Shown: in pieces, positions 13,378 through 29,532 of the stretch | How the letters are laid out: every line of letters begins with the position of its first letter | Numbering within the stretch: position 1 is the stretch's first letter | Assembly: GCF_033170155.1 (NCBI RefSeq) | Contig: NZ_CP137079.1 | Span: forward strand, 372,001 to 436,000 | From: Raineyella sp. W15-4 | GTDB taxonomy: Bacteria; Actinomycetota; Actinomycetes; Propionibacteriales; Propionibacteriaceae | Direction: 5' to 3' | Length of the DNA stretch: 64,000 nucleotides | Notes under the pieces: model-generated | The model's database searches: none | What the model was told of the DNA's origin: nothing | Seen by the model: the letters and a program-made list of their open reading frames with translations, nothing else | Made by a program: the position numbers and the translations under genes

Positions 13378-15090
13378 ATGACCGCGTCCTCCGTGTCTTC
13401 CACGCCGTCCGCCACGCCCCCCTGGGTCGCCGCCTACCAGCCCGGGGTCCCCGCCGAGATCGAGTTGCCGACCACCTCGTTGGTGGAGATGTTCGAACGC
13501 TCGGTGGCCGAGGGCGGTGCGGCCGTGGCGATGACCTTCTTCGGCCGCACCACCACGTACGCCGCCCTCGGCGAGCAGGTCCTCCGTGCTGCCGAGGGGC
13601 TGCGCCGGCTGGGCGTACGCGCCGGCGACCGGGTCGCCCTGATGCTGCCGAACTGTCCCCAGCACGTCGTCGCGTTCTACGCGGCGCTGCGGCTGGGCGC
13701 CGTCGTGGTGGAGCACAATCCGCTCTACACCGCCCACGAACTGGACGAGCTGTTCGCCGACCACGGCGCCCGGGTGGCGATCGCCTGGGACGTCGCGGTG
13801 GGCAAGCTGCAGGAGTTCCCGGCCGAGCTCCGCCCGGACGTCATCATCGCGGTGAACCTGGTGGAAGAGTTCCCGGTGGCGATGCGGGCCGCCCTGCGGC
13901 TGCCGGTGGGCTCGCTGCGCCGGACCCGCGCCGCGCTGACCGCGCCGACCCGCGGGACGATGCGGTGGCGGGCACTGCTGGCGGATCAGCCGGTCGACCC
14001 GGAGGTGCCGCGGCCCACGGTGCAGGACCTCGCGGTGATCCAGTACACCTCGGGCACCACCGGGCACCCGAAGGGGGCGATGCTCACCCACTTCAACCTC
14101 TACGCCAATGCCCTGCAGGGCAAGGCCTGGATGAAGGACGCGCAGTACCGCACGGAGAACTTCTACGCGGTGCTGCCGATGTTCCACGCCTTCGGGATGA
14201 CCCTCTACCTGACCTACGGCGTGCTGCGGCAGGCGAACCTGGTGCTGTTCCCGAAGTTCGACGTCGACCTGGTGCTGAAGGCGGCGAAGCGGTTCCCGCC
14301 GACGGTCTACTGCGCCGTCCCGCCGATCTACGAACGGACCGCGCGGGCGGCGATCGAGCGTGGGGTGTCGCTGGCGTCGGCGAAGTTCTGCATCTCCGGG
14401 GCGATGGCGCTGACCGATCCGATCGTCGAGCTGTGGGAGTCGGTCTCCGGCGGGCTGCTCGTCGAGGGGTACGGGATGACCGAGTCCTCGCCGGTGGCGC
14501 TCGGCAACCCGTTCTGGCCGACCCGGCGCACCGGCACCATCGGGGTGCCGTTCCCCTCCACCCTGATGAAGGTGGTCGACCCCGACGACCCGACCCGCGA
14601 GGTGGCGCAGGGGGAGCGCGGCGAACTGCTGCTCAAGGGCCCGCAGGTGTTCCAGGGCTACTGGAACAACCCCGAGGAGACCGCGAAGACCCTGTTGCCC
14701 GACGGCTGGCTGCGGACCGGCGACATCGTCGTGGTCGACGCCGACGGCTATACCACCATCGTCGACCGGGCCAAGGAGCTGATCATCACCGGTGGGTTCA
14801 ATGTCGCCCCCTCCGAGGTCGAGGAGGTGATCCGGGCGATCCCGGGGGTGAAGGACGTCGCGGTGGTCGGCAGACGGCGCCCGGACGGCTCCGAGACCGT
14901 CATCGCGGTGGTCGAGCCCGAGCCCGGCGCCCGGATCGACGAGGACGCCGTCCGGACCCACTGCCGGGGGCTGCTCGCCGCCTACAAGGTGCCCCGCCGG
15001 GTGATCACCGCCGAGGGGGAGCTGCCACGGTCGATGCTCGGCAAGGTGCTGCGCAAGCAGGTCCGGGAGGCGCTGCCGGCGGACCTGTGA
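13378..15090 (+). CDS. Long-chain fatty acid-CoA ligase (FadD-like)
   Basis: The 570-residue ANL-superfamily enzyme activates a carboxylic acid as an acyl adenylate and transfers it to CoA. Motifs are YTSGTTGHPKGAM (phosphate-binding loop, about residues 223-235), GYGMTES, DGWLRTGD and the C-terminal catalytic Lys within LGKVLRKQ near residue 560. Length and motifs match long-chain FadD enzymes better than acetate or benzoate ligases, but chain length cannot be read. It is the last gene before a strong hairpin that separates it from the convergent amidase operon. Confidence 0.88.
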   Translation: MTASSVSSTPSATPPWVAAYQPGVPAEIELPTTSLVEMFERSVAEGGAAVAMTFFGRTTTYAALGEQVLRAAEGLRRLGVRAGDRVALMLPNCPQHVVAFYAALRLGAVVVEHNPLYTAHELDELFADHGARVAIAWDVAVGKLQEFPAELRPDVIIAVNLVEEFPVAMRAALRLPVGSLRRTRAALTAPTRGTMRWRALLADQPVDPEVPRPTVQDLAVIQYTSGTTGHPKGAMLTHFNLYANALQGKAWMKDAQYRTENFYAVLPMFHAFGMTLYLTYGVLRQANLVLFPKFDVDLVLKAAKRFPPTVYCAVPPIYERTARAAIERGVSLASAKFCISGAMALTDPIVELWESVSGGLLVEGYGMTESSPVALGNPFWPTRRTGTIGVPFPSTLMKVVDPDDPTREVAQGERGELLLKGPQVFQGYWNNPEETAKTLLPDGWLRTGDIVVVDADGYTTIVDRAKELIITGGFNVAPSEVEEVIRAIPGVKDVAVVGRRRPDGSETVIAVVEPEPGARIDEDAVRTHCRGLLAAYKVPRRVITAEGELPRSMLGKVLRKQVREALPADL

Positions 15091-15091
15091 G

Positions 15092-15127
15092 GCGGGTGCC
15101 CTCCGCCCGTGAGCGGAGGGCACCCGC
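15092..15127. terminator. Perfect 15-bp bidirectional hairpin
   Basis: Positions 15092-15106 and 15113-15127 are exact reverse complements around a 6-nt loop. The hairpin lies between the convergent acyl-CoA ligase and amidase genes and begins 1 nt after the ligase stop. There is no U-tract on either side. It probably insulates the amide island on its left edge. Confidence 0.8.
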
Positions 15128-15152
15128 GCCGATGACCTGGCGGTGCCCCGCG

Positions 15153-16703
15153 TCAGGCGTGCGCAGAGGCGGTCAGCGGCGACGGGAACTCGCCGCGGAT
15201 CCGTTCCCAGGCCGCCGCCACCCGGAGCCCCAGGGCATCGTCGAACCGCGGTGCGACGATCATCATGCCGACCGGCAGGCCGTCGGACAGTCCCGCGGGC
15301 ACCGAGGTGGCGGGGTGACCCGAGATGTCGAACGGCGCGGTGTTGCCCACCATGTCGAGTGCCTTCCCGGCGTATTCCTCCGGCTCGGCCGAGGGATCGA
15401 CGAGCGGGGCCGGGAGGAAGGGGATGGTCGGCAGCACCAGGACGTCGTAGGCGGTGAGCGCCCGGTCATAGGCGTCGATGAGGTAGGGCACCAGGCGCCG
15501 GGCCCGGGCGTACACGGCGCCTCCGGTGGTCCTCAGGGTGTATTCGCCGGTCACCGCGAGGGAGCGCACCGTGTCTGCGAGCCGGTCCGCCTGCTCGAAC
15601 CGCTGGCGACCGAAGTACTCCATGATGGCCGGATCGTAGTAGCCGTCGACGTTCAGCCCGTACCCACTGCCGTTGAGCATCTGGTAGGTGGCGCCGTCGG
15701 TCGCGATCACGTTCCACAGATCGAGGGCGACGTCGCGGTGCCAGGGCACACTCACCTCGCCGACACTGGCGCCCGCCTCCCGGAGCGCCTCGGCCGCTTC
15801 GCGCACGGTCCGGTCCACGCCCGGGTCCGACACCCCGGGGATGCCGAAGCCCTCCCGGAGCAGGCCGATCCGCAGTCCCTCGACACCGAGTCCGAGCGAT
15901 CCGACATAGTCCTGCGGGGCATGCCCGTCGAGCTGGCGCGGGTCGAGTCCGTCACGTCCGGCGATCACCCCCAGGGTGACGGCGACGTCCGTGACGGAAC
16001 GGGCCATCGGGCCGATGTGGTCGATCGTGCGTTCGATCGGGAACGCTCCGGTGTAGGGCACCAGGGTGTGCGTCGGCTTGTGGCCGACCACACCGCTCCA
16101 CGCCGAGGGCATCCGGATCGATCCGCCCTGGTCGCAGCCGATGGCGATGTCGACCTGGCCGGTGGCCAGCAGCACCGCGCTGCCGCTGGACGAACCGCCC
16201 GCCGACCGGGTGGGATCCCAGGGATTCGTCACCGGGGCGGGCTTGGAGGTGAAGCTGGCGCCGGAGAGGCACAGGTCCTCACAGACGGACTTCCCGACGA
16301 TGGTCCCGCCGGCTGCGAGCAGACGGGTGACGACCGTGGCGTCCTCCTGGGCGACGAAACCCTCGAGGCTGTACGAACCGTTCATCAGCGGCAGGCCGGC
16401 CACCGAGACGTTGTCCTTGATGGCGATGGTCTTGCCGTCGAGCGGCCCGCGGCCGGTCGGCGGGATCACCGTGGTGGCTGCCCAGGCGCCGTGGGGATCG
16501 TCCTCCGGGGCGGCCTTGCCCACCGGCCGGTCCACTTCCGGCACCGTGACGGTCGTGTCGTAGAGAGCGTCGATCCGGTCGTACGAGTCGAGCGTTGCGG
16601 CAGCCATGCGCTGGAACGCTCCGACCTCGTCGGCCGTGAGGTGGTAGCCCTGCCTGCCGGCGGCTTCGGTGATCTGGTCAGTGGTCGGGCGTGGGATGGT
16701 CAT
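15153..16703 (-). CDS. Amidase-signature amidase (enantioselective AmdA type)
   Basis: The 516-residue enzyme hydrolyses carboxamides to acid and ammonia with a Ser-cisSer-Lys triad: Lys96 in AIKDNV, cis-Ser in the GGSSSGS loop (about 171-172) and nucleophile Ser195 in DQGGSIR. The whole protein closely follows the Rhodococcus enantioselective amidases known from nitrile-hydratase clusters, for example MNGS, DATVVTRLLAAG and CEDLCLSG. No nitrile hydratase is present here. ATG 16703 overlaps the amiB stop (ATGA) and has GAGGAG upstream. Having this enzyme beside AmiE gives the operon two amidases of unrelated folds, probably for different amide sizes. Confidence 0.92.
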   Translation of the reverse strand: MTIPRPTTDQITEAAGRQGYHLTADEVGAFQRMAAATLDSYDRIDALYDTTVTVPEVDRPVGKAAPEDDPHGAWAATTVIPPTGRGPLDGKTIAIKDNVSVAGLPLMNGSYSLEGFVAQEDATVVTRLLAAGGTIVGKSVCEDLCLSGASFTSKPAPVTNPWDPTRSAGGSSSGSAVLLATGQVDIAIGCDQGGSIRMPSAWSGVVGHKPTHTLVPYTGAFPIERTIDHIGPMARSVTDVAVTLGVIAGRDGLDPRQLDGHAPQDYVGSLGLGVEGLRIGLLREGFGIPGVSDPGVDRTVREAAEALREAGASVGEVSVPWHRDVALDLWNVIATDGATYQMLNGSGYGLNVDGYYDPAIMEYFGRQRFEQADRLADTVRSLAVTGEYTLRTTGGAVYARARRLVPYLIDAYDRALTAYDVLVLPTIPFLPAPLVDPSAEPEEYAGKALDMVGNTAPFDISGHPATSVPAGLSDGLPVGMMIVAPRFDDALGLRVAAAWERIRGEFPSPLTASAHA

Positions 16704-17800
16704 TGTGTGTTCTCCTCTTCGTGTCTCGGGTGGGATCGGGGGCTGGGGGGTCGTGGGGGAGCTCGGCGACAGTGCACCTCGCCGTCGACGAGGGCGACCT
16801 CGATGGTGCGGGGCTGATCGGGAGTGGTGCCGCCGGTCGCTTCGAGGAAGCGGGCGATCGGCAACGTCAGCTCGGACCTGAGGGTGCGGTGGAGGGCCCG
16901 GATCCCGTACGTCGGGTTGAAGCCGAGGTCGGTGAGGTGGTCGATCACCTCGGGACGGACATCGATCCGGATGCCCCGTTGCTGTGCCTGGTCGACGTAG
17001 GCGTGGACCTCCCGGGCGGCCACGGTCGCTGCGGTAGTCCGGTCGACCCGGTCGAACAGGATGACGTGGTCCAGTCTGTTGAGGAACTCCGGATCGAAGA
17101 ACCGGGTCACCGATCTCGCGTACACCCCGAGTTCCGCGCCGGCCATCCCGGGCGGGTAGCTCAGTTGGCCGGCCAAGGAGGCGACGTCGTCGGAGCCGCG
17201 GGCCAGCTGTCCGTTCCGGAGGTCCCGGGCGAGCTCCCGGAATCTCCGGAACGTCCGGCGGTGGGTCCGGTCCGCCTCGCGGACGCCGAGATTGGCGGTC
17301 AGGATGACGATGCAGTTGCGGAAGTCGAGTTCCCGGGTGCCGCTCGCGAGCCGCAACAGCCCGTTGTCCAGGATGTGCAGCAGGGAGCGCAACACCGTGG
17401 GGTGGGCCTTCTCGACCTCGTCGAAGAGGACGATGCCGGGCACGCCCGGGGTCGATTCGATCCGTGCGGCGTCGAAGACCGTGTGGCCTTCCCTGCTGCC
17501 GGCGTAGCCGGGGGGCGCACCGCTGATGCTCGCCACGTAGTGCTCCTGGGCGAAGCCGCTCATGTCGACCCGGCAGTAGTCGTCCGGGCCCGAGCGCAGG
17601 GCGGAGGCGAGCGCCCTGGCGGTCTCGGTCTTTCCCACTCCCGTCGGCCCGACGAACAGCATCGAGACGAGCGGGCGCCCGGGCCGGCCGAGCCCCGACT
17701 GCAGGACCGTCACGGTGTCCACCAGCGCCTGGATCGCATGATCCTGACCGGCGATCCGTGCTCTCAGCTGCCGCTCGACGACGGCGGTCCGGCTGTCCAC
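16700..17800 (-). CDS. amiB: AmiB, Clp-like AAA+ ATPase of the amidase operon
   Basis: The 366-residue protein is essentially a lone ClpB/ClpA D2 module. Walker A is GPTGVGKT (residues 51-58), the aromatic pore loop is GAPPGYAGSREG (Tyr99), Walker B is IVLFDE (123-128), the arginine-finger region reads FLNRLD, and sensor 2 lies in YGIRALHR before a ClpB D2-like C-terminal domain. No N-domain, first ATPase ring or obvious ClpP-binding IGF loop is present. A Clp-related AmiB of unknown job occurs in the Pseudomonas aeruginosa amidase operon between amiE and amiC. Here it lies between amiE and the second amidase and overlaps the latter by 4 bp. The pore loop suggests it remodels a protein. Confidence 0.85.
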   Translation of the reverse strand: MDSRTAVVERQLRARIAGQDHAIQALVDTVTVLQSGLGRPGRPLVSMLFVGPTGVGKTETARALASALRSGPDDYCRVDMSGFAQEHYVASISGAPPGYAGSREGHTVFDAARIESTPGVPGIVLFDEVEKAHPTVLRSLLHILDNGLLRLASGTRELDFRNCIVILTANLGVREADRTHRRTFRRFRELARDLRNGQLARGSDDVASLAGQLSYPPGMAGAELGVYARSVTRFFDPEFLNRLDHVILFDRVDRTTAATVAAREVHAYVDQAQQRGIRIDVRPEVIDHLTDLGFNPTYGIRALHRTLRSELTLPIARFLEATGGTTPDQPRTIEVALVDGEVHCRRAPPRPPSPRSHPRHEEENTQ

Positions 17801-17830
17801 GACGAGCTCCTCGGTCCGGAGTTAGGTACG

Positions 17831-18868
17831 TCAGGCTTCCATCACCTGCTCGGAGGGCAGGTCGTACACGGGGCAGTCCGCCACGCCGATGGTCGACCGG
17901 GTGATCGCCTCCACCTGCTCCTGGGCACGATGGGCATCGGTCACCCACGTCCGGTAGAAGTCGAACGGACAGTCGGCGATGCCCTTGTCCCCGTCGCCGG
18001 CGTTCCAGACGCCGGTGTAACCGCGGTGGAGGAGCTTGAAGAGGTGGTTCTGCGCCTGGTCGTTCGCCCGGGCGTCCCGGATCTCGGGGATCGAGAGCTG
18101 CGCGAACTGGATGCCGTACGGCTCCTCCCCGGTCTCGCCGAGCGTCCGACCGTCGAAGCCGATGACCGCTGAATGGCCGAAGTAGGTGTAGACCCCGTCG
18201 AAGCCGGCGCAGTTGGCCACCGCCACGTAGACGTTGTTCGCCCACGCCATCGCCTTCGCCATCAGCACCTGCTGGTCCTTGGACGGGTACATGTACCCCT
18301 GGCAACGGACCACCAGCTCGGCCCCCTTCATCGCACAGTCGCGCCAGATCTCGGGATAGTTGCCGTCGTCGCAGATGATCAGGGACATCCTGATGCCCTT
18401 CGGGCCTACGGAGACGTGGGTGCCGTCACCCGGGTACCACCCCTCGATCGGGTTCCAGGGGAGCACCTTGCGGTACTTCTGCACGATGGTGCCGGTGTCG
18501 TCGATCAGGACGACGGTGTTGTACGGCGGCTTGTTCGGGTGGTCCTCGTGCCGCTCCCCGGTGAGGGAGAAGACACCCCAGACCTTGGCTTCACGGCACG
18601 CCGCAGAGAAGATCTCGGTCTCCGGCCCGGGGACCGTCGTGGCGGTCGCGTACATCTCCTCGGTGTCGTACATGATGCCGAAGGTGGAGTACTCCGGGAA
18701 CACGATCAGGTCCATGCCGGGAAGCCCGGACTTCACGCCCTTGACCAGGTCGGCGATGGCCGAGGCGTTCGCCAGGACTTCGGCCGTGGTGTGAAGCCGG
18801 GGAATGGGGTAGTTCACCACGGCCACGCCGACCGTGTCGGGAGACGAGCTGATATCACCGTGCCGCAT
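17831..18868 (-). CDS. amiE: Aliphatic amidase AmiE
   Basis: The 345-residue nitrilase-superfamily enzyme hydrolyses short aliphatic amides such as acetamide and propionamide to the acid plus ammonia. The N-terminus MRHGDISSS is diagnostic of AmiE. Catalytic residues fall at the canonical numbers: Glu59, Lys134, Glu142 and Cys166 ([10 protein letters not shown]). Length and alignment are collinear with the Pseudomonas aeruginosa enzyme, so it is neither a generic nitrilase nor a formamidase. It precedes amiB by 30 bp. The 146-bp gap upstream is unusually AT-rich for this window and holds two TTCY-N4-GGAA motifs, so the gene probably has its own regulated promoter. Confidence 0.97.
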
Positions 18869-18894
18869 GTCTGAGCCCTTCTTGGTGAAGATTG

Positions 18895-18950
18895 TTCCGT
18901 ATGGAAATAACTATTACGCCTGTTTGTTGCGGAGATGTTTCTGAATGGAA
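18895..18950. promoter_or_regulatory. Two TTCY-N4-GGAA operator-like motifs upstream of amiE
   Basis: TTCCGTATGGAA lies at 18895-18906 and TTCTGAATGGAA at 18939-18950, with starts 44 bp apart, close to four helical turns. The second sits inside a longer perfect inverted repeat TGTTTC-N6-GAAACA (18936-18953). The stretch is locally AT-rich. The same 12-bp pattern recurs upstream of the transporter operon at 20753-20764. Confidence 0.5.
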
Positions 18951-19014
18951 ACACTTGCGGGATGTCTGCTCGTGACGTGTGGACGGGCGCCGGGGTCTGG
19001 TCTCGCGGGTGGGG

Positions 19015-20091
19015 TCAGGCGGCCCCGCGCCAGGTCGCCACGACCTCGAAGTCGTAGCCGTCCGCCTCGGCCAGGTGGAGGTTCTGGTCTGCTTGGTTGC
19101 CCTCGAACGACAGGAGTCCGCGGGGGGTCTCCAGGTGCAGCCCGTCGATCACCCGATCCGTGTCCGGGACCCGTGGACTGCCGGCCCGCTCGGCGATCGC
19201 CTTGACCGCCCAGATGCTGTCGTAGCAGGACTCTGCCGGAGCGGTGAGGGGTGGCGCAACGCCCCCCTCGGCCGACGAGTACGCGGACAGCAGGCCGGCG
19301 GAGCCGGCGGTGTGGAGGGTGCGGAAGAAGCCGCCGGTGGAGAAGAGGTTCCGGGTGCCGTCAATGCCGCTGGCCATCAGCATGCTCTCCTCCATCAGCG
19401 GGCTGAGCCGGGTGGTGGTCCGATGCAGGCCTCTGGCGGCGAACCCGCGGTTGAACTCGACCGCGTTGTGTCCGAGCTTGAGCAGCAGGATCCCGTCACA
19501 GTGGACCGTGGGCAGGATGTCCAGGAGCCGCTTCTGCCGGTCGAGGGCAGGGCTGGTCTGGTCGCCGAAGAAGACCGCCCCGAGCAGATCGATGTCGGAG
19601 CCGACTCTCAGCGCCTCGAGTGTCCGGTAGGTCTGGCGGGGCCAGACATAGTCGTCCCCGACCACCAACCAGCGTCGCGCACGGTGGCTCGCGGCCAACC
19701 TCCGCAGCGCCGGCATCAGCTGGGATGCCGGCGTCTCGCCGAGACAGTACGTACCCCTGCGGGTCTCGTTGCCCTCGTAGACGGCGGAATAGACGTACGG
19801 GACTCTGCCGGCGATCAGTGGCACCAGCCGGTTGCGCAGGGAGCTGTCGTGCCAGCCGGTCACGGCGTCGAGTCGGCCGTCGCGGATCCCGCGGTCGACG
19901 GCGGTCATCACCTCCCGGGGGTCGGCGCCGCCGTCGATGAACTCCAGGGCGACCTCTCGCCCGAGGATGCCGTCGGTTGCGTTGATCTGCTGGGCGGCGA
20001 ACTCCGAAGCCGCCTCGGCGGCCGCGCCGAACATCCCGGCCGCGTGCTGGAACGGGATGATGACCCCGATCCGTATCGCCATCTGCTGCAT
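19015..20091 (-). CDS. AmiC-like amide-sensor (periplasmic-binding-protein fold, no signal peptide)
   Basis: The 358-residue protein has the type I periplasmic-binding fold of the Leu/amide group (start IRIGVIIPFQHAAGMFG, hinge region DDYVWPR), but there is no signal peptide or lipobox, so it should stay in the cytoplasm. This is the defining property of AmiC, which senses amides and in Pseudomonas controls the antiterminator AmiR. No AmiR/ANTAR gene lies in the window, so the partner here is unknown; the MarR gene next door is one candidate. Sequence divergence from Pseudomonas AmiC is large, so the orthology is moderate. It is 146 bp upstream of amiE on the same strand. Confidence 0.72.
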   Translation of the reverse strand: MQQMAIRIGVIIPFQHAAGMFGAAAEAASEFAAQQINATDGILGREVALEFIDGGADPREVMTAVDRGIRDGRLDAVTGWHDSSLRNRLVPLIAGRVPYVYSAVYEGNETRRGTYCLGETPASQLMPALRRLAASHRARRWLVVGDDYVWPRQTYRTLEALRVGSDIDLLGAVFFGDQTSPALDRQKRLLDILPTVHCDGILLLKLGHNAVEFNRGFAARGLHRTTTRLSPLMEESMLMASGIDGTRNLFSTGGFFRTLHTAGSAGLLSAYSSAEGGVAPPLTAPAESCYDSIWAVKAIAERAGSPRVPDTDRVIDGLHLETPRGLLSFEGNQADQNLHLAEADGYDFEVVATWRGAA

Positions 20092-20254
20092 GTGTCGCCC
20101 CTATCGGGATCAGTGCCCACCGCGACCGTCTGGTGTGCTCCGGTAGGACGCTATCCTCGCGGCGTTGCAGGGCCGTGACGGACCCGTTCCAGGTTGGGCG
20201 TCGGTCGGCGTGGCGCGTGTCGGTGTCCGGCGGCCGGGCCGTCGGGTGACCGGT

Positions 20255-20260
20255 TACAGT
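20255..20260 (+). promoter_or_regulatory. TACAGT -10 box of the MarR gene
   Basis: TACAGT is followed by 6 nt and then GTG 20267. This spacing selects GTG 20267 as a leaderless start over earlier in-frame starts. Confidence 0.5.
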
Positions 20261-20266
20261 CGACCT

Positions 20267-20665
20267 GTGACGAGGGAGAGCGGCTTGCCAGGTGCGGAGG
20301 TGACACCGGGAGCCGGGTCGGTCCAGCGCCGGCTGAGTGATGCCATCGTCGGTGGCCGGCGAGCGGCGGATGCCGTTCGGTCGGTCCTTGCGGGCGCCGG
20401 GCTCTCCCTCGAAGGGTGGTTGGTGCTCGTCGCCCTCGCGCGACAGAACGGTCTGATCATGTCGGAGATCGCCGAGCGTACCCGGAGCAGCAATGCGACG
20501 TTGACCCGGCACGTCGACACCTTGGTGCAGCAGGCGCTGGTGTACCGCGAGGTGGTCCACGACGACCGCCGGCAGATCGCGGTCTATGCCTCTCGGCGGG
20601 GTCTGGCCCTGGTGTCCCGGCTCGAGTCCGAACTGCGCGCCGAGGAGGGGCCCGGCCAGTCCTGA
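20267..20665 (+). CDS. MarR-family transcriptional regulator
   Basis: The 132-residue protein has the MarR winged helix at about residues 45-110: SLEGWLVLVALA, IAERTRSSNATLTRHVDTLV as the helix-turn-helix, and the wing DDRRQIAVY. GTG 20267 is chosen because a TACAGT box ends 6 nt before it; the frame stays open upstream without MarR-like sequence. It lies between the divergent amiC-amiE and urt operons and is likely to control at least one of them. MarR proteins usually respond to small carboxylates or aromatics, so an amide or its acid product is a plausible ligand. Confidence 0.82.
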   Translation: MTRESGLPGAEVTPGAGSVQRRLSDAIVGGRRAADAVRSVLAGAGLSLEGWLVLVALARQNGLIMSEIAERTRSSNATLTRHVDTLVQQALVYREVVHDDRRQIAVYASRRGLALVSRLESELRAEEGPGQS

Positions 20666-20751
20666 CCGGGCCTCCCGGCAGCGGGTGTTGCCGGTTACGG
20701 TCACGTGAAGATACTTTCAATCGGTATCAATGTCGCCAGGTCCATCATATG

Positions 20752-20765
20752 CTTCCAAGTGGAAG
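20752..20765. promoter_or_regulatory. CTTCC-N4-GGAAG motif upstream of the ABC importer operon
   Basis: A perfect inverted repeat with 5-nt arms and a 4-nt spacer sits about 32 bp before the importer's first start codon. Its core matches the TTCY-N4-GGAA motifs upstream of amiE, which suggests a shared regulator. Confidence 0.5.
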
Positions 20766-20796
20766 GAAATAGTTCGACCGGGTGAAATGGAGAATC

Positions 20797-21492
20797 ATGG
20801 AATCGGATGTCCTGGTCTGCTCAGGGGTGACCGTCTCATTCGGCGCGGTCAAGGTGCTGCACGGAGTGGACATGACGGTGCGGAGGGGAGAGGTCCACGT
20901 CCTTGTCGGCCCGAACGGTGCCGGGAAGACCACTCTGGCGAATGCCATCACCGGCCACGCGCCGGTGGCGACCGGCGAGATCCGCCTGTGCGGTCGGCGT
21001 CTGGACGGCCCGCCCTGGAAGCGGGCGAAGCGTGGGGTCGGTCGCAAGTTCCAGGTGCCCAGGGTGTTTCCCCGACTCTCGGCGGCGGACAACCTCCGGG
21101 TCGCGGGCGGGCGGGGCGAAGCGCTCCGGGTGCCGTACGCCGACGCGGGAAGGGCCTGGGGCAAGGAGATCAGCCACGGGGAACGCCAACAGTTGGAACT
21201 CGACATGGTCCACATGACCAGACCCGTCCTGGTGGTGCTGGACGAGCCCACGGCGGGGATGCCGGCGGAGGAGCGGATCAGACTGGCGGAGCAGATCAGG
21301 TCCCGCAAGGGTGACGCTGCGTACCTCATCGTCGAGCATGATCTCCAGTTCGTCCGCCTCGTCGCGGACCGTGTCTCGTTCCTGCAGGAGGGTCGGCTCG
21401 AACTGACCGGCAGCTACGACGAGGTCAGCACGCACCCCCGGGTGATCTCCGCCTACCTGGGCGAGGCGATCGAGAGCCGGGCCGTGCGATGA
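20797..21492 (+). CDS. urtD: Urea/amide-type ABC transporter ATP-binding protein UrtD
   Basis: The 231-residue ATPase belongs to the branched-chain amino acid/urea importer group. Walker A is GPNGAGKTT (residues 38-46), Walker B is VLVVLDEPT and the signature is SHGERQ. SHGxxQ in place of LSGGQ is typical of UrtD rather than LivG. ATG 20797 follows GGAGA; GTG 20782 in the same frame is the alternative. It is the first gene of a five-gene importer operon whose order D-E-A-B-C differs from the usual urtABCDE. With no urease nearby and AmiE opposite, amide uptake is more likely than urea uptake. Confidence 0.85.
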   Translation: MESDVLVCSGVTVSFGAVKVLHGVDMTVRRGEVHVLVGPNGAGKTTLANAITGHAPVATGEIRLCGRRLDGPPWKRAKRGVGRKFQVPRVFPRLSAADNLRVAGGRGEALRVPYADAGRAWGKEISHGERQQLELDMVHMTRPVLVVLDEPTAGMPAEERIRLAEQIRSRKGDAAYLIVEHDLQFVRLVADRVSFLQEGRLELTGSYDEVSTHPRVISAYLGEAIESRAVR

Positions 21493-22214
21493 CGGCCACC
21501 CATGCGATGACAGCCACCACGGTGATCGCCGGGGCAGCCCTGCGGGTGCGCGACCTCAGCGTGTTCCGTGAGGACATCCGGGTGGTCCGCGACGTCGCCC
21601 TCGCGATCGACCCGGGCGAGTCGCTGGGCATCCTGGGCCACAACGGGGCGGGCAAGACGTCGCTGATCGAGGGGATCGTCGGTCTTCTCCGCACCCGCGG
21701 CGACATCGACCTCTTCGGTGACACGGTGAGGGGAACGCCGGGCTCTGGCCGGGCCCGCTCCGGGATGGCGCTGGTGCCCCAGGGCCGGCGACTGATCGCC
21801 GACATGACCGTCGAGGAGAACCTGCGGACGGCGCTCCTGGCGCCCGGAGGCGGTGGACCTCGGATCGATGTCGACGAGCTGTTCCCAGGACTGCGGGAGC
21901 TGTCGAAACGGAAGGCGGGCCTGCTGTCCGGCGGACAACAGCAACAGGTGGCCATCGCCCGGGCCCTGCTGCGGCGACCGAAGGTTCTCATCCTCGACGA
22001 GCCGACCGAAGGGCTGTCCCCGCTGCTCATCGCGGAGATCGTCCGCGTCCTCGGCGAACTCCGTGGTCTCGGCGTCTCGATCCTGCTCGCCGAGCAGCAC
22101 CATCACGTGATCGCCTCCTCCTGCGATCGCTACCTGACCATCCGATCGGGGCAGATCGTCGCCCGGGGAGAGACCTCGGACGGACGACTCGACTCCTACG
22201 CCGAACAGCTGTGA
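21489..22214 (+). CDS. urtE: Urea/amide-type ABC transporter ATP-binding protein UrtE
   Basis: This is the second importer ATPase, with 241 residues. It carries Walker A GHNGAGKTS, the signature LLSGGQQQQVAIARAL and Walker B VLILDEPTEGLSP, with the Q-loop VPQGRRL. The EPTEG and GGQQQQ wording is typical of UrtE. The ATG overlaps the urtD stop (ATGA), so the two ATPases are translated together and should form a heterodimer under the UrtB-UrtC channel. The next gene, for the binding protein, follows after 67 bp that include a small hairpin. Confidence 0.87.
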   Translation: MTATHAMTATTVIAGAALRVRDLSVFREDIRVVRDVALAIDPGESLGILGHNGAGKTSLIEGIVGLLRTRGDIDLFGDTVRGTPGSGRARSGMALVPQGRRLIADMTVEENLRTALLAPGGGGPRIDVDELFPGLRELSKRKAGLLSGGQQQQVAIARALLRRPKVLILDEPTEGLSPLLIAEIVRVLGELRGLGVSILLAEQHHHVIASSCDRYLTIRSGQIVARGETSDGRLDSYAEQL

Positions 22215-22235
22215 GTCCTCACCACAGCACAGGCC

Positions 22236-22252
22236 GATCCGCTGACCGGATC
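22236..22252 (+). other. Small hairpin between urtE and urtA
   Basis: GATCCG and CGGATC flank a 5-nt loop in the 67-bp gap before the binding-protein gene. It may stabilise or adjust expression of the more abundant lipoprotein; it is too weak to call a terminator. AAAGGAACG upstream of ATG 22282 is the ribosome site. Confidence 0.3.
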
Positions 22253-22281
22253 ACCCACCACCCAACGAAAGGAACGACATC

Positions 22282-23568
22282 ATGAACATCTCCCACGGCA
22301 ACGGAGCACCCGTCTCCGGCCGCGTCCGACCATCCATCCGGGTACATCGCAGGCTTCTCGCGGGGGTCGCCCTCGCCGGGGCACTGGCGATGACGACCAC
22401 GGCGTGCTCCGGCGGCGCGAATCAGCGGGCCGCCGCGGACGGGAACACCATCAAGCTCGGCCTCCTCTACTCGCTGACCGGCGACCTGGCCACGGTCGAG
22501 ACGCCGATGCATGACGCCGCGCTGCTGGCCGTCGACGAGATCAACGCCGCGGGTGGCATCAACGGCAAGAAGATCGAACCGGTGGTGGAGGACTACGCCT
22601 CGGACAATGCCAAGGCGGTCGAGAAGGCCAACAAACTGATCGAGGACGACCATGTCGTGGCCACCCTCGGGATGTACACCTCGGCCAGCCGCCTCGCGGT
22701 GTTGCCCAAGTTCGAGCAGTCCAATTCCCTGCTCCTCTACGCGGTGGTGACCGAGGGGTTGGAGTGCAGCCCGAACGTCATCTACACCGGCATCACGCCG
22801 TCCCAGACGCTGGAGCAGACCATCCCGTGGATGTTGCAGCACCTCGGCAAGAAGGTCTACCTGGTCGGGTCGGACTACATCTACCCGCACACCGTGAACG
22901 CCATCGCGAAGAAGCTGATCGAGCAGAACGGCGGCGAAGTCGTCGCGGATGACTACTTCCCCCTCGGCAGCACCGAGTTCGGCACCGCCGTCTCCAAGAT
23001 CAAGAACAGCAATGCCGATGTCGTGTTCTCGTCCCTGGTCGCCGGGTCGATCCCGGCCTTCTACAAGCAGTACCACGCCGGCGGCCTGGACTTCCAGCAG
23101 CGGCCGCTGGTCTCGTCGATCACGTCCGAGGCGGAGATCGCCGGCATGGGTGCCGACAATGCGGTGGGCAGCTACACCGCTTCGTCGTACTTCCAGTCGA
23201 TCGATTCGCCCACGAACGACGCCTTCGTCAAGGCGATCAAGGCGAAGTACGGCAGCGGGCAGTTCACCGATCGTGAGATGGCTGCCGCCTACAGCACCGT
23301 CTACATGTTCAAGAAGGCCGTCGAGTCCGCTGGTGGTGACCTCTCCACCGACCATCTGAAGAAGGTCTTCCCGGGTACGAGCGTCGAGGGGCCACAAGGG
23401 ACGGTGACGGTCGAGTCGAACAACAACACGACCATGACCTCACTGCTCGGCAAGGTCAACGCCTCGGGACAGTTCGACGTCGTGCAGGACTTCGGCCAGG
23501 TGAAGGCGGACCCCTTCCCGGCCTCGGTGGTGCCGAACCCGCCCACCTGTCCGGTCCGGGTCAAGTGA
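22282..23568 (+). CDS. urtA: Urea/amide-type ABC transporter substrate-binding lipoprotein UrtA
   Basis: The 428-residue protein has a long basic N-terminus, one hydrophobic segment and a lipobox ending at Cys42 (TTAC), so it is a membrane-anchored receptor outside the cell. The mature part follows UrtA and AmiC closely: GDLATVETPMHDAALLA, EGLECSPNVIYTG, VGSDYIYP and PLGSTEF. Those motifs place it in the urea/short-amide group rather than with the branched-chain amino acid binders. FmdD of the formamide importer is a close functional parallel. The ligand is inferred as a short aliphatic amide from AmiE on the opposite strand. Confidence 0.88.
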   Translation: MNISHGNGAPVSGRVRPSIRVHRRLLAGVALAGALAMTTTACSGGANQRAAADGNTIKLGLLYSLTGDLATVETPMHDAALLAVDEINAAGGINGKKIEPVVEDYASDNAKAVEKANKLIEDDHVVATLGMYTSASRLAVLPKFEQSNSLLLYAVVTEGLECSPNVIYTGITPSQTLEQTIPWMLQHLGKKVYLVGSDYIYPHTVNAIAKKLIEQNGGEVVADDYFPLGSTEFGTAVSKIKNSNADVVFSSLVAGSIPAFYKQYHAGGLDFQQRPLVSSITSEAEIAGMGADNAVGSYTASSYFQSIDSPTNDAFVKAIKAKYGSGQFTDREMAAAYSTVYMFKKAVESAGGDLSTDHLKKVFPGTSVEGPQGTVTVESNNNTTMTSLLGKVNASGQFDVVQDFGQVKADPFPASVVPNPPTCPVRVK

Positions 23569-23601
23569 CCCGGATGCTCCGGGGAAGGTGAGGAGGACAT
23601 C

Positions 23602-24456
23602 GTGTCGATCGTTCTTCAGGTGCTGTTCCAGGGGCTCGGGATCGGGTCCGTCCTGCTGCTGGGTGCCCTCGGACTGATGATCATCTACGGGGTGATGGGG
23701 ATCGTGAACCTCGCCCACGGTGAGTTCGTGATGGTCGGCGCCTACGCCTCCGTCGTCGTGTCGACGGTCGGCATGTCGTGGCTGTCGATCCCTGCCGCAG
23801 TCCTTGTCGCCGGTGCGCTGGGGCTCCTCGTCGACGTGGTCGTGGTGAGGTATTTCTACAACAACCCGGTGGCGTCGATGCTCGGGACCTTCGGCATCGG
23901 CATGGTCCTGCAGAGCGTCGTCCTGCTCGTCTTCGGCCCGAACCTCCAACGATCCGAGCAGCCGATCACCGCCTCGGTCCCGATCGGCTTCGGGCAGAGC
24001 TTCTCGGTGTGGCGGCTCGTACTGATCGGTGTCGCCGTCGTCACGACGATAGGCCTCGGGCTGGTCCTGGCCCGGACGAAGTACGGGCTCACGGTCAGGT
24101 TGGTCACGGCGGACCGTCAGGTCGCCTCGACGCTCGGGATCCGGTCCAAGCGGACCAACCGGTGGACCTTCGCCCTGGGCTGTGCCCTTGCCGGGTTCGG
24201 CGGCGCCCTGGCCGCACCACTGGCCAATGTGTCGCCCACGATGGGGGTCACCTACCTGGCGAACTCCTTCCTGGTCGTCGTACTGGCGAGGCTGGGGGAT
24301 GTCCGCTCGACCGCCCTGTGGTCGGCGGCGCTCGGGGTGGGGCTGGCCGGGGTTGCCGCGGTGTCGAATGATGTCGTCGCCACGATCATCATCTGGGTGG
24401 CGGCCCTGGCCATCGTCGCCGTCCGTCGAACCGAGCTCAGTGCGGTCCGGGTGTGA
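23602..24456 (+). CDS. urtB: Urea/amide-type ABC transporter permease UrtB
   Basis: This 284-residue LivH-family permease has about eight membrane segments and the family motifs GVMGIVNLAHGEF near the N-terminus and GLGLVLARTKYGL in the cytoplasmic coupling region. The GTG start at 23602 has AAGGTGAGGAGG upstream. It ends by overlapping the start region of urtC. It is shorter than some proteobacterial UrtB proteins, which carry an extra periplasmic N-terminal domain; the short form resembles LivH and FmdE. Confidence 0.9.
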   Translation: MSIVLQVLFQGLGIGSVLLLGALGLMIIYGVMGIVNLAHGEFVMVGAYASVVVSTVGMSWLSIPAAVLVAGALGLLVDVVVVRYFYNNPVASMLGTFGIGMVLQSVVLLVFGPNLQRSEQPITASVPIGFGQSFSVWRLVLIGVAVVTTIGLGLVLARTKYGLTVRLVTADRQVASTLGIRSKRTNRWTFALGCALAGFGGALAAPLANVSPTMGVTYLANSFLVVVLARLGDVRSTALWSAALGVGLAGVAAVSNDVVATIIIWVAALAIVAVRRTELSAVRV

Positions 24457-25631
24457 TGGGAGAAATGGACATGAAGAAGCTTTCCGACCTCCTGCCGGGT
24501 CTCCGTGGGGGCGGCACACATCGTTTCGGCCCCACGGCCACCCCGAAACCGCTGACGGCCGGCCTGGTCCTGCTGGCGTTCCTGCTCGCACCGGCAGCGC
24601 TCGGCGGGTACGGATCCGGACTCGTGGCGCTGTACCTCCCGCTGGTGCTGCTGGCCCTGAGCGCCGATCTCCTCTGGGGCCTCAACGGGGTGGTGTCCTT
24701 CGGGCATGCCGCGTTCTTCACCGCCGGGGCCTATCTGGCGGCACTGATCGTCGGCGGACCCGGAGACTCGGCCGCGGGCACACTGAGCTATCTGCAGGCG
24801 ACGAACGTCGGTGCGGGGCCCGGAGACGTCTGGCGGGGGGTGTTCGAGGCGCTGGCTGCGGTGCGGATCCTGGGCGTGTCCGTCCTGGCGCTCCTCCTCC
24901 CCGCCGTGGTCGTCGGCCTCTTCGGGCTGGTGCTGGGACTGGTCCTGTTCCGGCTGCCGTCGCCCGAGGTCTATGTGCCGCTGATGACACTCGGACTCGG
25001 TGTGATCATGACGACGAGCCTCGTCGGGGTGTCGTTCCTGGGAGCGAGCAACGGGCTCTCCAACATCCCCTCGTTCGTAGCGGACACCTGGCTCACCCGG
25101 ATCGCCGGGGACGGGATGGGCAAGTACTACTTCAACCTGCTCTTCCTGGTCGTGGCGTACGGCGTCTACTGGTGGTTCCGTGGGTCGTCGTGGGGCCGCC
25201 GCTGGCTGGGGTCGGGTGATTCGCCGCTGCGCCTGGACGCGCTGGGGTACCGGGCGAATCTGACCCGCAGCCTGGGCTTCGGCGCCTCGGCCGCACTGGC
25301 CGGATTCGCCGGCGCGCTCTATGTCGGGTCGATCGGATTCGTCGCTCCGGCGCAGGCCGCCGTGGGACAGTCGGCGATGGTGCTGATCTGGGTCGCGGTC
25401 GGGCGTCCGGGCAGCTTCTTCGGGCCGCTGGTCGGAGTCCTGACGATCCAGATCAGCTCGTTCTTCCTGTCCGGCGTGCTGAAGAACAGCTGGCAACTCG
25501 TCCTCGGCGTCATCCTGATCCTGGTGGTCGTGCTGATGACACGGGCCGCCGAGATCCGAGCGTTCGTCCGGCGGACAGTGCGTCGTGCCGAGCGCCCCCC
25601 GGTCGAGCGGGTCGCGTCGGCGAGCGAATGA
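24456..25631 (+). CDS. urtC: Urea/amide-type ABC transporter permease UrtC
   Basis: This LivM-family permease of about 391 residues is the second half of the importer channel. It contains about nine hydrophobic segments and the motif WGLNGVVSFGHAAFF that marks LivM/UrtC. Several starts are possible: ATG 24456 overlaps the urtB stop, while ATG 24471 has a better-spaced GGGAGA. It is the last gene of the importer operon, 19 bp before an 11-bp terminator stem. The C-terminal tail is basic and cytoplasmic. Confidence 0.88.
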   Translation: MGEMDMKKLSDLLPGLRGGGTHRFGPTATPKPLTAGLVLLAFLLAPAALGGYGSGLVALYLPLVLLALSADLLWGLNGVVSFGHAAFFTAGAYLAALIVGGPGDSAAGTLSYLQATNVGAGPGDVWRGVFEALAAVRILGVSVLALLLPAVVVGLFGLVLGLVLFRLPSPEVYVPLMTLGLGVIMTTSLVGVSFLGASNGLSNIPSFVADTWLTRIAGDGMGKYYFNLLFLVVAYGVYWWFRGSSWGRRWLGSGDSPLRLDALGYRANLTRSLGFGASAALAGFAGALYVGSIGFVAPAQAAVGQSAMVLIWVAVGRPGSFFGPLVGVLTIQISSFFLSGVLKNSWQLVLGVILILVVVLMTRAAEIRAFVRRTVRRAERPPVERVASASE

Positions 25632-25650
25632 TGTGACCGTTGGCGGTCCT

Positions 25651-25686
25651 GGGTCGCCGGGCGGGTGTCCCGCGCCCCGGCGACCC
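25651..25686. terminator. 11-bp hairpin ending the importer operon
   Basis: GGGTCGCCGGG at 25651-25661 pairs with its exact complement at 25676-25686, and the loop holds a nested 4-bp stem. It lies between convergent urtC and the unknown gene on the minus strand, marking the right edge of the amide island. Confidence 0.75.
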
Positions 25687-25690
25687 GGGA

Positions 25691-26371
25691 TCAGCGTCGC
25701 GGCCGGCCGGTGGGCCGCGGCCGGCCGGTGAGGGCGTGGGCCACCGCCGCGGCGATGGCGACCCCGTTGAGCGCGTCCTCGGTGGTTTGCGGCACCCGGT
25801 CCAGACGCTCGGCGACCACCGTGATGCCCTGGAGGGTCACGCTCCAGGGCAGCTGGGTGGCCATCAGCAACGTACGGACCGCGGGGCCGACGGTCATCCG
25901 GCCGAGCAGCTCGTCGTCGGTGAGGATCGCGAACCGGCCGTCGAAGTCGGCGTGTCCGGTGTGGTGGACGGTGCCGCCGACCGCGCGACGGCGTTCCTCG
26001 AGCAGGTCGATCGGCACGATCCGCACCTCGTTGAGCGGGAACGGCAGCCGGATCCAGCAGATCGTCGCGTGGGTCCGGCGCCCGTGCCGCGCGGGATCCG
26101 CCTCGTGGACGACGTGCGCGACACAGAACTCCTGACCGTGATAGCTGCCGGCGAAACCCTCCCGGAACCGCAGCCGCCGCTGCCACTCCCGCAGTCTCGG
26201 TGGCGGTGGGCGCAGCCGGGAGGCGTCGTCGGTGTAGGTCCATCCCCGCGCCGTAGCGCCGGAGCGGAGCGCCGTCAGGCGACGGTGTTCACGTCGCGGG
26301 GCGCCGATGGCGATCGTGGCCAGCCAACCGACCAGCGGCAGGGTGATCAACAGCACCAGCCAGGTGCCCAT
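25691..26371 (-). CDS. Membrane-anchored protein of unknown function
   Basis: The 226-residue protein starts with one hydrophobic helix (about residues 3-24) followed by a basic stop-transfer RREHRR and a soluble cytoplasmic domain. The domain has a beta-rich pattern with FRVxGSYHGxEF-like and LPFPLNEVRIVP segments, as in several unnamed actinobacterial proteins. I do not recognise the family. The ATG overlaps the stop of a 27-codon frame (ATGA) that has its own promoter-like box, so the pair may be a leader peptide and its gene. No functional link to the cobalamin genes upstream is visible. Confidence 0.75.
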   Translation of the reverse strand: MGTWLVLLITLPLVGWLATIAIGAPRREHRRLTALRSGATARGWTYTDDASRLRPPPPRLREWQRRLRFREGFAGSYHGQEFCVAHVVHEADPARHGRRTHATICWIRLPFPLNEVRIVPIDLLEERRRAVGGTVHHTGHADFDGRFAILTDDELLGRMTVGPAVRTLLMATQLPWSVTLQGITVVAERLDRVPQTTEDALNGVAIAAAVAHALTGRPRPTGRPRR

Positions 26372-26467: not shown

Positions 26468-27421
26468 TCAACGGTGGTTCGCCGGGCCCCGATCGGCTGC
26501 CGGGCCACTGCCGGCGCCGGCCACCGTGACGGCCACCGCCACCGCCAGGGTCCCGAGCTGCACCCGGCGGGCGAGCCGGACCGCTCGAGCCACATCCCGC
26601 GGCTCCGCCCGGCGACCGTCCCCCAGCTCACCGCGGTCCTCCACAATGCCGCCGTAGGCGTTCGACCCACCGAGGCGGATCCCCAGCGCGCCGGCGAAGG
26701 CGGCCTCGATCTGCCCGCCGTTCGGGCTGGGGTGCGCCGCGGTGTCCTCGCGGATCGCCCGCCAGGCCCCGGCCGAGGTCCCCGCGGCGAGCGCGGCGCC
26801 GAGCCGGGCCGGCAGCCAGTTGACCGCGTCGTCGAGCCGGGCGGCCACCTTCCCGAACCGCTCGTAGCGGTCGTTGCGGTAGCCGATCATCGCGTCGAGG
26901 GTGTTGATCGCCCGATGGGCCACCATCCCCGGCGCGCCGGCGAGCGCGCCCCAGACCAGCGGGGCGACCACGGCGTCGGAGGTGTTCTCGGCCAGCGACT
27001 CGATCGCGGCCCGGGTGACGCCGGCCGCGTCCAGCGCCCACGGATCCCGGCCGACCAGATGGCTGACCTGTTCCCGTGCGGCGGACAGATCCTCCCGCTC
27101 GAGGTGGCCGGCGACCGCCGAGGCCTCCCGCTCCAGTGACCGGCCGCCGAGCACGGTCCAGGTGACCAGCGCCGTCCAGACGACGTCGGCGACGGGCCGG
27201 TGGCGGACCGACCGCTGCACCAGCGCGGCCGCGAGCGTCGCCGCTCCCACCAGCAGCCCCACGTGTTCAGCCCCCGCGGCCACCGAGTCGGCGTACGTAC
27301 GCCGCTCCAGTCGGCCGGCCACCCGGCCGAACGCCGCCACCGGGTGCCCCCGGCGGGGATCGCCGAGCAACCGGTCCAGCCCGAACCCGAGGGCCAGCCC
27401 GAGAGCCCGGGAGCAGCTCAC
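26468..27421 (-). CDS. cbiB: Adenosylcobinamide-phosphate synthase CbiB/CobD
   Basis: The 317-residue membrane enzyme attaches the aminopropanol arm to adenosylcobyric acid. Motifs seen are DRLLGDPRRGHPV near the N-terminus, the segment ESLAENTSDAVVAPL, and HPSPNGGQIEAAFAGALG with YGG further on, all typical of CbiB/CobD. GTG 27421 overlaps the cobS stop (GTGA), which favours it over the neighbouring GTG 27424. Several hydrophobic helices are present at both ends. Together with cobS and cobT it supplies late steps of cobalamin assembly; cobU/cobP, needed between them, is not in the window. Confidence 0.92.
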   Translation of the reverse strand: MSCSRALGLALGFGLDRLLGDPRRGHPVAAFGRVAGRLERRTYADSVAAGAEHVGLLVGAATLAAALVQRSVRHRPVADVVWTALVTWTVLGGRSLEREASAVAGHLEREDLSAAREQVSHLVGRDPWALDAAGVTRAAIESLAENTSDAVVAPLVWGALAGAPGMVAHRAINTLDAMIGYRNDRYERFGKVAARLDDAVNWLPARLGAALAAGTSAGAWRAIREDTAAHPSPNGGQIEAAFAGALGIRLGGSNAYGGIVEDRGELGDGRRAEPRDVARAVRLARRVQLGTLAVAVAVTVAGAGSGPAADRGPANHR

Positions 27422-28200
27422 CACGCGATCACCGCTGCCACGGCGAGCCCGGCCGCGGCCGCCTCGACGGTGGCGCCGAGGACATCGCCGGTGATGCCGC
27501 CGAGCCGGCGGACACACCACCACAGCAGCACCCCGGCGGCCAGCGGCCCGCCGGCTGTGGCGATCACACCGGCCCACCAGGTCGCCCCGGTCACCACCGC
27601 GACTCCGGCCAGCGCCGCCGCCCAGACCAGCCAGACGACCACCGCGCCGTACCACGGCACCGACCCGGCGACCGCCTGCCCGAGCCCCTCGGGCCGGGCC
27701 GCCGGCACGCCGCGCAGGCAGCCCAGCACGAGCGCCGCCCGCGAGGCGCAGACCAGCGCCGCGACCAGCAGCCAGCCCAGCGGGCCCGCCAGCAGCGCGC
27801 CGTACGACGCCGCCTGCAGGCCCAGCACCACGACCAGCGTGCCGGCCCCCATCGGGCCGACGTCGCCGGTGCGCATGATCTCGAGCGCCCGGTCGCGGTC
27901 CCAGGAGGAGCCGAGTCCGTCGGCGGTGTCGGCCAGCCCGTCCCAGTGCATGGCCCGGGTGAGCTGGGCGACGATCCCGACGACCAGCAGGCCCCCGACC
28001 AGGCCGGGAGCGCCGAGCCGTACCGCTCCCCAGCCGGCCAGACCTGCTGCCAGCGCGACCGGCACCATCACCACCGAACCGACGGTCATCGCCGTCCGGG
28101 CGATCGGCCGGGTGACCTGGGCGATCGGCCCGGCAGGGATCCGGGTGAGGGTGCCGAGAGCCAGTCGCCAGCCGTCGGCCGGCCCGGGCTCAGCTGACAT
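27418..28200 (-). CDS. cobS: Adenosylcobinamide-GDP ribazoletransferase CobS
   Basis: The 260-residue integral membrane protein joins activated cobinamide to alpha-ribazole, the last assembly step of cobalamin. The N-terminal FLTRIP-type motif reads GTLTRIPAG, and the active-site region reads RAMHWDGLADTADGLGSSWDRDRALEIMRTGDVGPMG, split here over the expected loops. Seven or so hydrophobic helices follow. It overlaps cobT by 11 bp and cbiB by 4 bp, so the three are one translationally coupled operon behind a cobalamin riboswitch. Confidence 0.94.
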   Translation of the reverse strand: MSAEPGPADGWRLALGTLTRIPAGPIAQVTRPIARTAMTVGSVVMVPVALAAGLAGWGAVRLGAPGLVGGLLVVGIVAQLTRAMHWDGLADTADGLGSSWDRDRALEIMRTGDVGPMGAGTLVVVLGLQAASYGALLAGPLGWLLVAALVCASRAALVLGCLRGVPAARPEGLGQAVAGSVPWYGAVVVWLVWAAALAGVAVVTGATWWAGVIATAGGPLAAGVLLWWCVRRLGGITGDVLGATVEAAAAGLAVAAVIAW

Positions 28201-29224: not shown

Positions 29225-29341
29225 CGATCCTCCGAGGGGTGGAGGCGCGCCCGGATCCGCAGAAGGCCCTGTGGATACGAGTGAGTGGAATCGGACCGAA
29301 CATCACGGCCCGGGCACGCCGCCACGTCTGGTATGGGCGCG

Positions 29342-29401: not shown

Positions 29402-29435
29402 GGTGTCCTCTCCGGGATGGCGCGTCCCAGTCGTG

Positions 29436-29530: not shown

Positions 29531-29532
29531 GC

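Follow-up and report, generated by a model that had tools for sequence, protein, structure and literature searches.

A probable amide-scavenging regulon in Raineyella sp. W15-4 that joins an actinobacterial AmiC/MarR amidase locus to a Urt-type importer

The stretch of 64,000 nucleotides analysed here (the window) corresponds to positions 372001-436000 of the 3.96-Mb, one-contig genome of Raineyella sp. W15-4, and it contains a block of ten genes (15153-25631 in window coordinates) arranged in two opposed groups between two hairpins. The minus-strand group consists, in order, of amiC, amiE, amiB, and a gene for an amidase-signature amidase, and the plus-strand group of marR followed by urtD-E-A-B-C-like genes for an ATP-binding cassette (ABC) importer. 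The block probably constitutes an inducible amide-scavenging regulon, in which uptake, sensing, and hydrolysis of an amide would be placed under shared MarR control. A single amide regulon had been proposed in a preliminary description of this DNA, and the proposal gained sequence support from paired palindromes in both promoters, a binding protein unlike that for urea, and the failure to detect a urease alpha subunit in the genome.

In the proposed mechanism, a binding protein of the UrtA/AmiC family would capture a small amide outside the cell, the UrtB/C-like permeases and UrtD/E-like ATPases would import it, and AmiE and the amidase-signature amidase would cleave it, releasing ammonia and a carboxylic acid. 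The AmiC-like sensor would bind the amide in the cytoplasm. MarR, bound to the paired palindromes (consensus ATACTTCCAATTGGAAGTAT), would hold the amiE and urtD promoters off, and amide-loaded AmiC would relieve this repression of both operons. We infer from the sequence that MarR binds these sites, that the sign of its action is repression, that AmiC signals to MarR, and that the cargo is an amide of this kind. We lean slightly toward a broader interpretation, namely that a two-part amide switch is widespread in Actinobacteria, in which a cytoplasmic sensor of the AmiC/UrtA fold would control a MarR repressor at a conserved palindrome, and that the switch has here captured an amide ABC importer; the same fold would then detect the amide outside the cell, as the importer binding protein, and inside it, as the sensor.

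As far as the literature searched goes, the union of an AmiC/MarR amidase locus with a Urt-type importer is new, as is the predicted operator tying both. Urt-type importers by aliphatic amidases were already known in Proteobacteria, and Actinobacteria often carry AmiC/MarR amidase loci. If the proposal is true, the predicted operator would mark amide regulons in many Actinobacteria, including the amidase loci of Mycobacterium and Mycolicibacterium, and would offer a simple binding test for AmiC sensor action without AmiR; moreover, importers with Urt-like subunits could carry amides, and W120, Q144, and N246 of UrtA would help, imperfectly, to tell the types apart.

AmiC and MarR in actinobacterial amidase loci

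The AmiC-like sensor matched solved structures including 1PEA and 1QNL, and showed 38-45% identity to six plasmid-encoded sensors and up to 50% to a wider actinobacterial set. A signal peptide was absent by eye, and the sensor was taken to be cytoplasmic. An alignment of seven AmiC-like sensors, used to scan the contigs of 84,980 species, gave 247 relatives; the counts that follow cover the best 80 of the 247 (the closest 50% identical, the other 167 unseen), and some of these loci end at contig ends. MarR lay upstream of AmiC on the opposite strand in 79 of the 80 loci, within 700 bp in 78, and AmiE was found at most 6 kb from AmiC in 54. Among the latter, AmiB was directly downstream of AmiE in 35 and AmiS was near in 43. 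Importer genes A, B, or C were present within 6 kb of AmiC in none of the 80 loci, nor in any of the 54 with amiE. In the plasmid loci, MarR stood beside the sensor in the gene tables of five of six, and in the sixth (L030) it was detected via tblastn only.

AmiC with a divergent MarR is nearly always the actinobacterial pairing, and it marks a common type of amidase locus. Because MarR beside AmiC is the norm in Actinobacteria, the missing AmiR calls for no special account, and the earlier view of the block as a Pseudomonas operon rebuilt through loss of AmiR was not supported. For this phylum, the one unusual feature is that an importer replaces AmiS. Loci that resemble the block in having an AmiC sensor, a divergent MarR, and AmiE were found on a Mycolicibacterium arabiense plasmid (L027), in other Mycobacterium/Mycolicibacterium (L062, L064, L071, L076, L078, L079), and in Saccharopolyspora (L033, L034, L036). 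The block shares with this module AmiC with divergent MarR, AmiE followed by AmiB, and, as in some of these loci, a palindrome 5' of the structural genes, and differs from it in the lack of AmiS and the presence of the importer. Because an amiB homologue follows amiE directly in so many of these loci, AmiB probably helps AmiE as a Clp-type ATPase.

The ami operon of Pseudomonas aeruginosa is amiEBCRS. AmiE, AmiB, and AmiC are common to this operon and the block, whereas the block has neither an ANTAR gene by AmiC nor AmiS, and carries MarR and the importer instead. The genome encodes one ANTAR protein only, about 2 Mb from the block, with none beside AmiC, and it gave no match to AmiS (PF02293) in a search whose control was positive in 1 of 14 genomes, itself below the cut-off. 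Both results agree with the absence of AmiS and AmiR from the block as first described.

In Mycobacterium smegmatis, amiA is reportedly a negative regulator of the acetamidase (work attributed to Parish, 2001), and AmiC is said to be a positive one (attributed to Venkatesan, 2018). By these paper titles alone, the acetamidase operon resembles the block in that AmiC and a distinct negative regulator control an inducible amidase, which fits the regulation proposed here.

Predicted operator in the amiE and urtD promoters

Exact copies of the palindrome TTCCNNNNGGAA occurred twice in the window, once in the amiE promoter and once in the urtD promoter, and two or more copies were obtained in 1 of 100 shuffles. 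The 12-mer core of the second urtD site, TTCCAAGTGGAA, recurred in the marR-amiC gaps of five loci of other genomes (L062, L078, L079, L093, L098). We then have two tests that are independent of the copies in the window. The first was a count in 85 marR-amiC gaps taken from 88 loci, bounded by tblastn matches and including some near-identical species: these gaps (19,400 bp) held 18 exact TTCCNNNNGGAA sites, as compared with 50 in all 1,723,849 bp, so that about 1% of the sequence contained 18 of the 50. Five control palindromes matched in composition were not found in the gaps, but they were scarce overall too (3-20 each). The palindrome or a near copy was present in 47 of the 85 gaps. The second test covered all 3,328 palindromes having arms of 4 bases and a spacer of 0-12 in 62 non-redundant marR-amiC gaps. 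TTCC-4-GGAA was found in 11 of the 62, against an expectation of 0.38, and the nested TCCA-2-TGGA in 12, against 0.45; these two had the most matches among patterns with strong ratios, and two patterns of higher ratio came from 4 and 5 gaps.

A position weight matrix (PWM) was built from 35 distinct sites in the marR-amiC gaps of other genomes, with the consensus ATACTTCCAATTGGAAGTAT. The four top scores in the 64-kb window all fell in the amiE and urtD promoters (Table 1), the next score being 8.4, and the two sites of each pair were spaced 44 bp (amiE) and 38 bp (urtD) apart. When the columns of the matrix were permuted with the palindrome kept (n = 2000), 8 matrices also placed all four top scores there, and none attained 28.3. 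In two loci outside the set used for the PWM, the best scores were likewise located at relevant genes: 31.9 and 26.6 in the amiE-amiB gap of L121, and 21.5 upstream of urtA beside AmiC/MarR in L124. No account of an AmiC/MarR operator was found in the literature searched, the coverage of which was partial, so that a precedent in print is possible.

Importer genes and substrate type

The five-gene importer in the order D-E-A-B-C, described as Urt-type, was borne out. A urea-transporter NCBIfam was the best family for all five proteins; because all five scored below the curated cut-offs (Table 1), the label Urt-type holds and the label Urt is not established. The genes urtD and urtE, and likewise urtB and urtC, overlap by 4 bp, and the binding protein has a lipobox-like N-terminus by eye.

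The urea site of UrtA consists of W120, S122, Y141, Q144, E146, Y190, N246, and S274, eight residues described as conserved in an excerpt of the source (PMC10392092). At the corresponding positions the binding protein of the block showed the replacements W120Y, Q144V, and N246V, whereas S122, Y141, E146, and Y190 were kept; the column of S274 contained I, an assignment sensitive to how the sequences are aligned. In AmiC (1PEA), Y, P, and V stand in place of W120, Q144, and N246. All three residues were kept in eleven aligned proteins, namely 8HIC, the urease-linked G234 (L123), the urea-carboxylase-linked L129, G246 (L122), G307 (L124), and six from the order (L140, L141, L143-L146), and both Q144 and N246 were missing in seven of seven amidase- or formamidase-linked importers examined. 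These three residues serve as an imperfect guide to the urea type, and not as proof.

In a tree of 21 rows of importer binding proteins, the protein of the block was placed in a seven-row clade with support of 100/99, together with amidase-linked proteins of Rhizobium, Roseibium, Shinella, Aestuarium, and Ancylobacter and a urease-linked protein of Aminobacter. A placement within the urea type was rejected (p-AU 0.0018, for a test group named after earlier trees). By these comparisons, the importer binding protein falls outside the urea type. No match to the urease alpha subunit (PF00449) was found in the genome, in a search whose control was positive in 4 of 14 genomes; urea carboxylase was not searched. 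The nitrile hydratase alpha subunit also gave no genome match, but none of the control genomes was positive. Of the two absences that had been claimed for this DNA, that of urease stood and that of nitrile hydratase was not established.

Importers of this kind have precedents beside amidases. The four best plasmid relatives of the binding protein belonged to alphaproteobacterial clusters with an importer and an aliphatic amidase, and two of these four, as well as Roseibium, had an AmiC-like sensor next to an ANTAR protein. As in the block, a binding protein, a UrtBCDE-like importer, and AmiE are clustered in Rhizobium etli (L117), Shinella (L118), Aestuarium (L119), Ancylobacter (L120), and Roseibium (L131), and L117, L120, and L131 also carry an AmiC-like sensor, the neighbour of which is an ANTAR protein of the AmiR type, unlike the MarR of the block. 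The alphaproteobacterial importer genes are ordered A-B-C-D-E, 5' of amiE on the same strand, in contrast to D-E-A-B-C here, and amiE is followed on its 3' side by CbbQ/VWA genes (L117, L118, L131), an AAA ATPase gene (L119), or urease genes (L120). In excerpts of the published accounts, a urt-type importer beside aliphatic amidases was noted in Bradyrhizobium in 2010, with an amide as the probable cargo (PMC3098086), and amide transport was suggested in 2026 for an amiE-amiC-amiR-ABC operon of a Klebsiella plasmid and for amiE-fmdAB-urtABCDE of Pseudomonas veronii (PMC13209695). These three systems, as given in the excerpts, resemble the block in coupling a Urt-type importer with an aliphatic amidase; they differ in that they are proteobacterial and have AmiR with AmiC, or neither AmiC nor AmiR found, and MarR is unmentioned in the excerpts.

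Alternative explanations

Several observations weigh against the amide regulon. The motif was first spotted in the window, and the count in the 85 gaps uses it as a seed. In 38 of those gaps no site was present at one mismatch or fewer, so that not every AmiC/MarR pair has the palindrome, and the marR-amiC gap of the window itself has no good PWM site. As many as 1028 of the 2000 permuted matrices placed at least one of their top four scores in the amiE and urtD promoters, because these promoters are AT-rich. The second amiE site lies within the maxima of block shuffles of the window (mean 12.2, largest 19.9), and taken alone is therefore not beyond chance. Best scores of 12.4-20.7 were reached in six proteobacterial importer loci (L117-L120, L126, L131), though no site was expected there, and scores in this range therefore mean little in such loci. 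A genome-wide search for the palindrome at three mismatches gave 92 matches as compared with 88 in a reversed control, without enrichment, and a promoter scan of 15000-25800 called no promoter of the sigma-70 type. With regard to the importer, two urease-adjacent proteins (L128, L130) also lack Q144 and N246, and the amidase-linked proteins of Caballeronia (L126) and Klebsiella (L127) fell outside the seven-row clade, in a third group with the urease-linked protein of Methylobacterium (L128). Finally, none of the other genomes examined contained the block in full.

It is unlikely, though it deserves weight, that some other transcription factor recognises the palindrome, or that MarR is an activator, with AmiC regulating something else. 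The gaps without a palindrome, that of the window included, would agree with another factor, and the title in which the M. smegmatis AmiC is called a positive regulator raises the possibility that signs differ; the concentration of exact sites in marR-amiC gaps argues against another factor. In each promoter, one site precedes the start codon by 26-32 bp (for the second urtD site, the chosen start by 32 bp), which would suit a repressor.

Nitrogen scavenging is often under GlnR-type control. That a global nitrogen regulator of this type mainly controls both operons, with AmiC/MarR minor or directed at another target, is a good deal less probable than the regulation by MarR set out above, and we regard it as quite doubtful. 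Pairs resembling GlnR half-sites start at 18926 and 18937 in the amiE promoter, at 20164 between marR and amiC (an exact pair), and at 20694 in the urtD promoter; they span 18926-18952, 20164-20179, and 20694-20709, which are all three regulatory gaps of the block. The same pattern occurred 30 times window-wide as compared with 28.3 expected from shuffles, which is not above chance, and TTCCNNNNGGAA is the palindrome enriched in AmiC/MarR gaps elsewhere; both controls can, however, coexist.

According to a further explanation, which we consider highly doubtful, the importer carries urea, or urea and an amide, and merely adjoins the amidase operon, the two halves being unrelated. The family matches of all five importer proteins agree with this explanation, as do other Actinobacteria in which AmiC/MarR lies near urt-like genes (L095, L096, and L100, with urease in L095 and L100, the two scanned for it) or beside a urea-type urt operon (L124). 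Against it stand the scores below cut-offs, the missing urease alpha subunit (the urea carboxylase route not being searched), the replacement of W120, Q144, and N246, the rejected placement in the tree, and the paired palindrome common to both promoters.

In L124 (G307:C8:250000-268000), the urea-type urt operon beside AmiC and MarR has a strong palindrome at 9941, upstream of urtA, and neither an amidase nor a urease was present among the six neighbouring open reading frames (ORFs) scanned; the AmiC/MarR switch may run urea importers too. In Isoptericola and Ruania (L095, L096, L100), AmiC/MarR lies about 5 kb downstream of the urt-like genes, amiE was undetected, and no good palindrome was found beside the AmiC/MarR pair. 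Urease alpha lies between the urt-like genes and AmiC/MarR in L095 and L100, and L095 also has a NicO nickel transporter.

Distribution of the block

Of the 147 genomes of the order, 3 carried amiE, one of them that of W15-4, and the other two (G011, G015) had no further gene of the block within the 18 kb read. At E 1e-65, AmiB was detected in this genome and G443 only among 396 genomes of the phylum, and two genomes of the same genus had no binding protein comparable at E 1e-50. The block is also the lowest-GC stretch of its length in the window (68.1% as compared with 72.8% for the remainder). Because of the low GC, the rarity of amiE in the order, and the lack of a comparable binding protein in the same-genus genomes, the block appears to have been acquired by horizontal transfer. 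By the preliminary description, a neighbourhood not conserved in related genomes would refute its proposal. The whole block does fail this check, occurring nowhere else among the genomes examined, whereas its two halves recur separately. That the genes are chance neighbours with no functional link, as the uniqueness of the complete block would allow, is extremely improbable, since amiE, amiB, amiC, and marR occur together elsewhere, the importer and amiE occur together in Alphaproteobacteria, and the palindromes are common to both promoters.

Gene organization and neighbouring features

Family scans bore out the presence of every component named earlier, that is, AmiE, AmiB, the AmiC-like sensor, MarR, a second amidase, and the importer (Table 1). 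The best match of AmiE among solved structures was 2UXY (625.5 bits), and the nearest solved structure of the amidase-signature amidase was 3A1K (phmmer, 582.7 bits). The genes for AmiB and the amidase-signature amidase overlap by 4 bp, and an alternative start of urtD is a GTG at 20782.

Table 1. Coordinates of the genes, predicted operator sites, and hairpins of the block in the window
Feature	Position	Strand	Evidence and remarks
Hairpin	15092-15127	both strands fold	between AMP-ligase gene and amidase operon; about -40 kcal/mol; z -5.4 (+), -4.8
Amidase-signature amidase	15153-16703	-	PF01425; NF005565, 704.9 bits
AmiB-like Clp/AAA_2 ATPase	16700-17800	-	PF07724, PF10431
AmiE aliphatic amidase	17831-18868	-	NCBIfam NF009802, 662.6 bits (cut-off 427)
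Predicted MarR operator, amiE site 1	18891-18910		core TTCCGTATGGAA 18895-18906; 26 bp before amiE start; PWM rank 2, 22.0
Predicted MarR operator, amiE site 2	18935-18954		core 18939-18950; PWM rank 4, 14.3; weakest of four
AmiC-like sensor	19015-20091	-	PF13458, 171.6 bits
MarR regulator	about 20267-20665	+	PF12802, PF01047; divergent from amiC; start codon picked by eye
Predicted MarR operator, urtD site 1	20711-20730		core 20715-20726; PWM rank 3, 21.3
Predicted MarR operator, urtD site 2	20749-20768		core TTCCAAGTGGAA 20753-20764; PWM rank 1, 28.3
Importer ATPase, UrtD-like	about 20797-21492	+	TIGR03411, 189.1 bits (cut-off 304.1); start picked by eye
Importer ATPase, UrtE-like	21489-22214	+	TIGR03410, 207 bits (cut-off 285.8)
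Importer substrate-binding protein	22282-23568	+	PF13433, 396.2 bits; TIGR03407, 365.7 bits (cut-off 492.75)
Importer permease, UrtB-like	23602-24456	+	TIGR03409, 207 bits (cut-off 250.3)
Importer permease, UrtC-like	24453-25631	+	TIGR03408, 129.3 bits (cut-off 296.2)
Hairpin	25651-25686		3' of urtC; -45.5 kcal/mol; z -4.3 (+ strand), -3.3 (- strand)

The folding energy of both hairpins was far beyond that of shuffled sequence, and both may act as terminators; neither was among the calls of a terminator scan.

Counts of the palindrome across the genome were dropped as evidence, being uninformative: TTCCNNNNGGAA occurs at 60 places in the genome. Among the 50 of these places that were listed, 20 were TTCCCGCGGGAA, and among the matches listed there were four pairs of TTCCCGCGGGAA 25-126 bp apart (87270/87341, 177861/177886, 495635/495706, and 738090/738216 of genome G000) and none between 1.04 and 3.08 Mb.

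Beyond the hairpin at the 3' end of the amidase operon, a gene for an AMP-binding ligase (13378-15090) is convergent with that operon and is without an operator site nearby. In L027 and L028, an acetate-CoA ligase comes after amiB. On the other side of the block, matches to PF02654 and PF02277 mark CobS and a DBI_PRT phosphoribosyltransferase; this region (27418-29550 of the window) also has a cobalamin riboswitch, at 29430-29550 on the minus strand.

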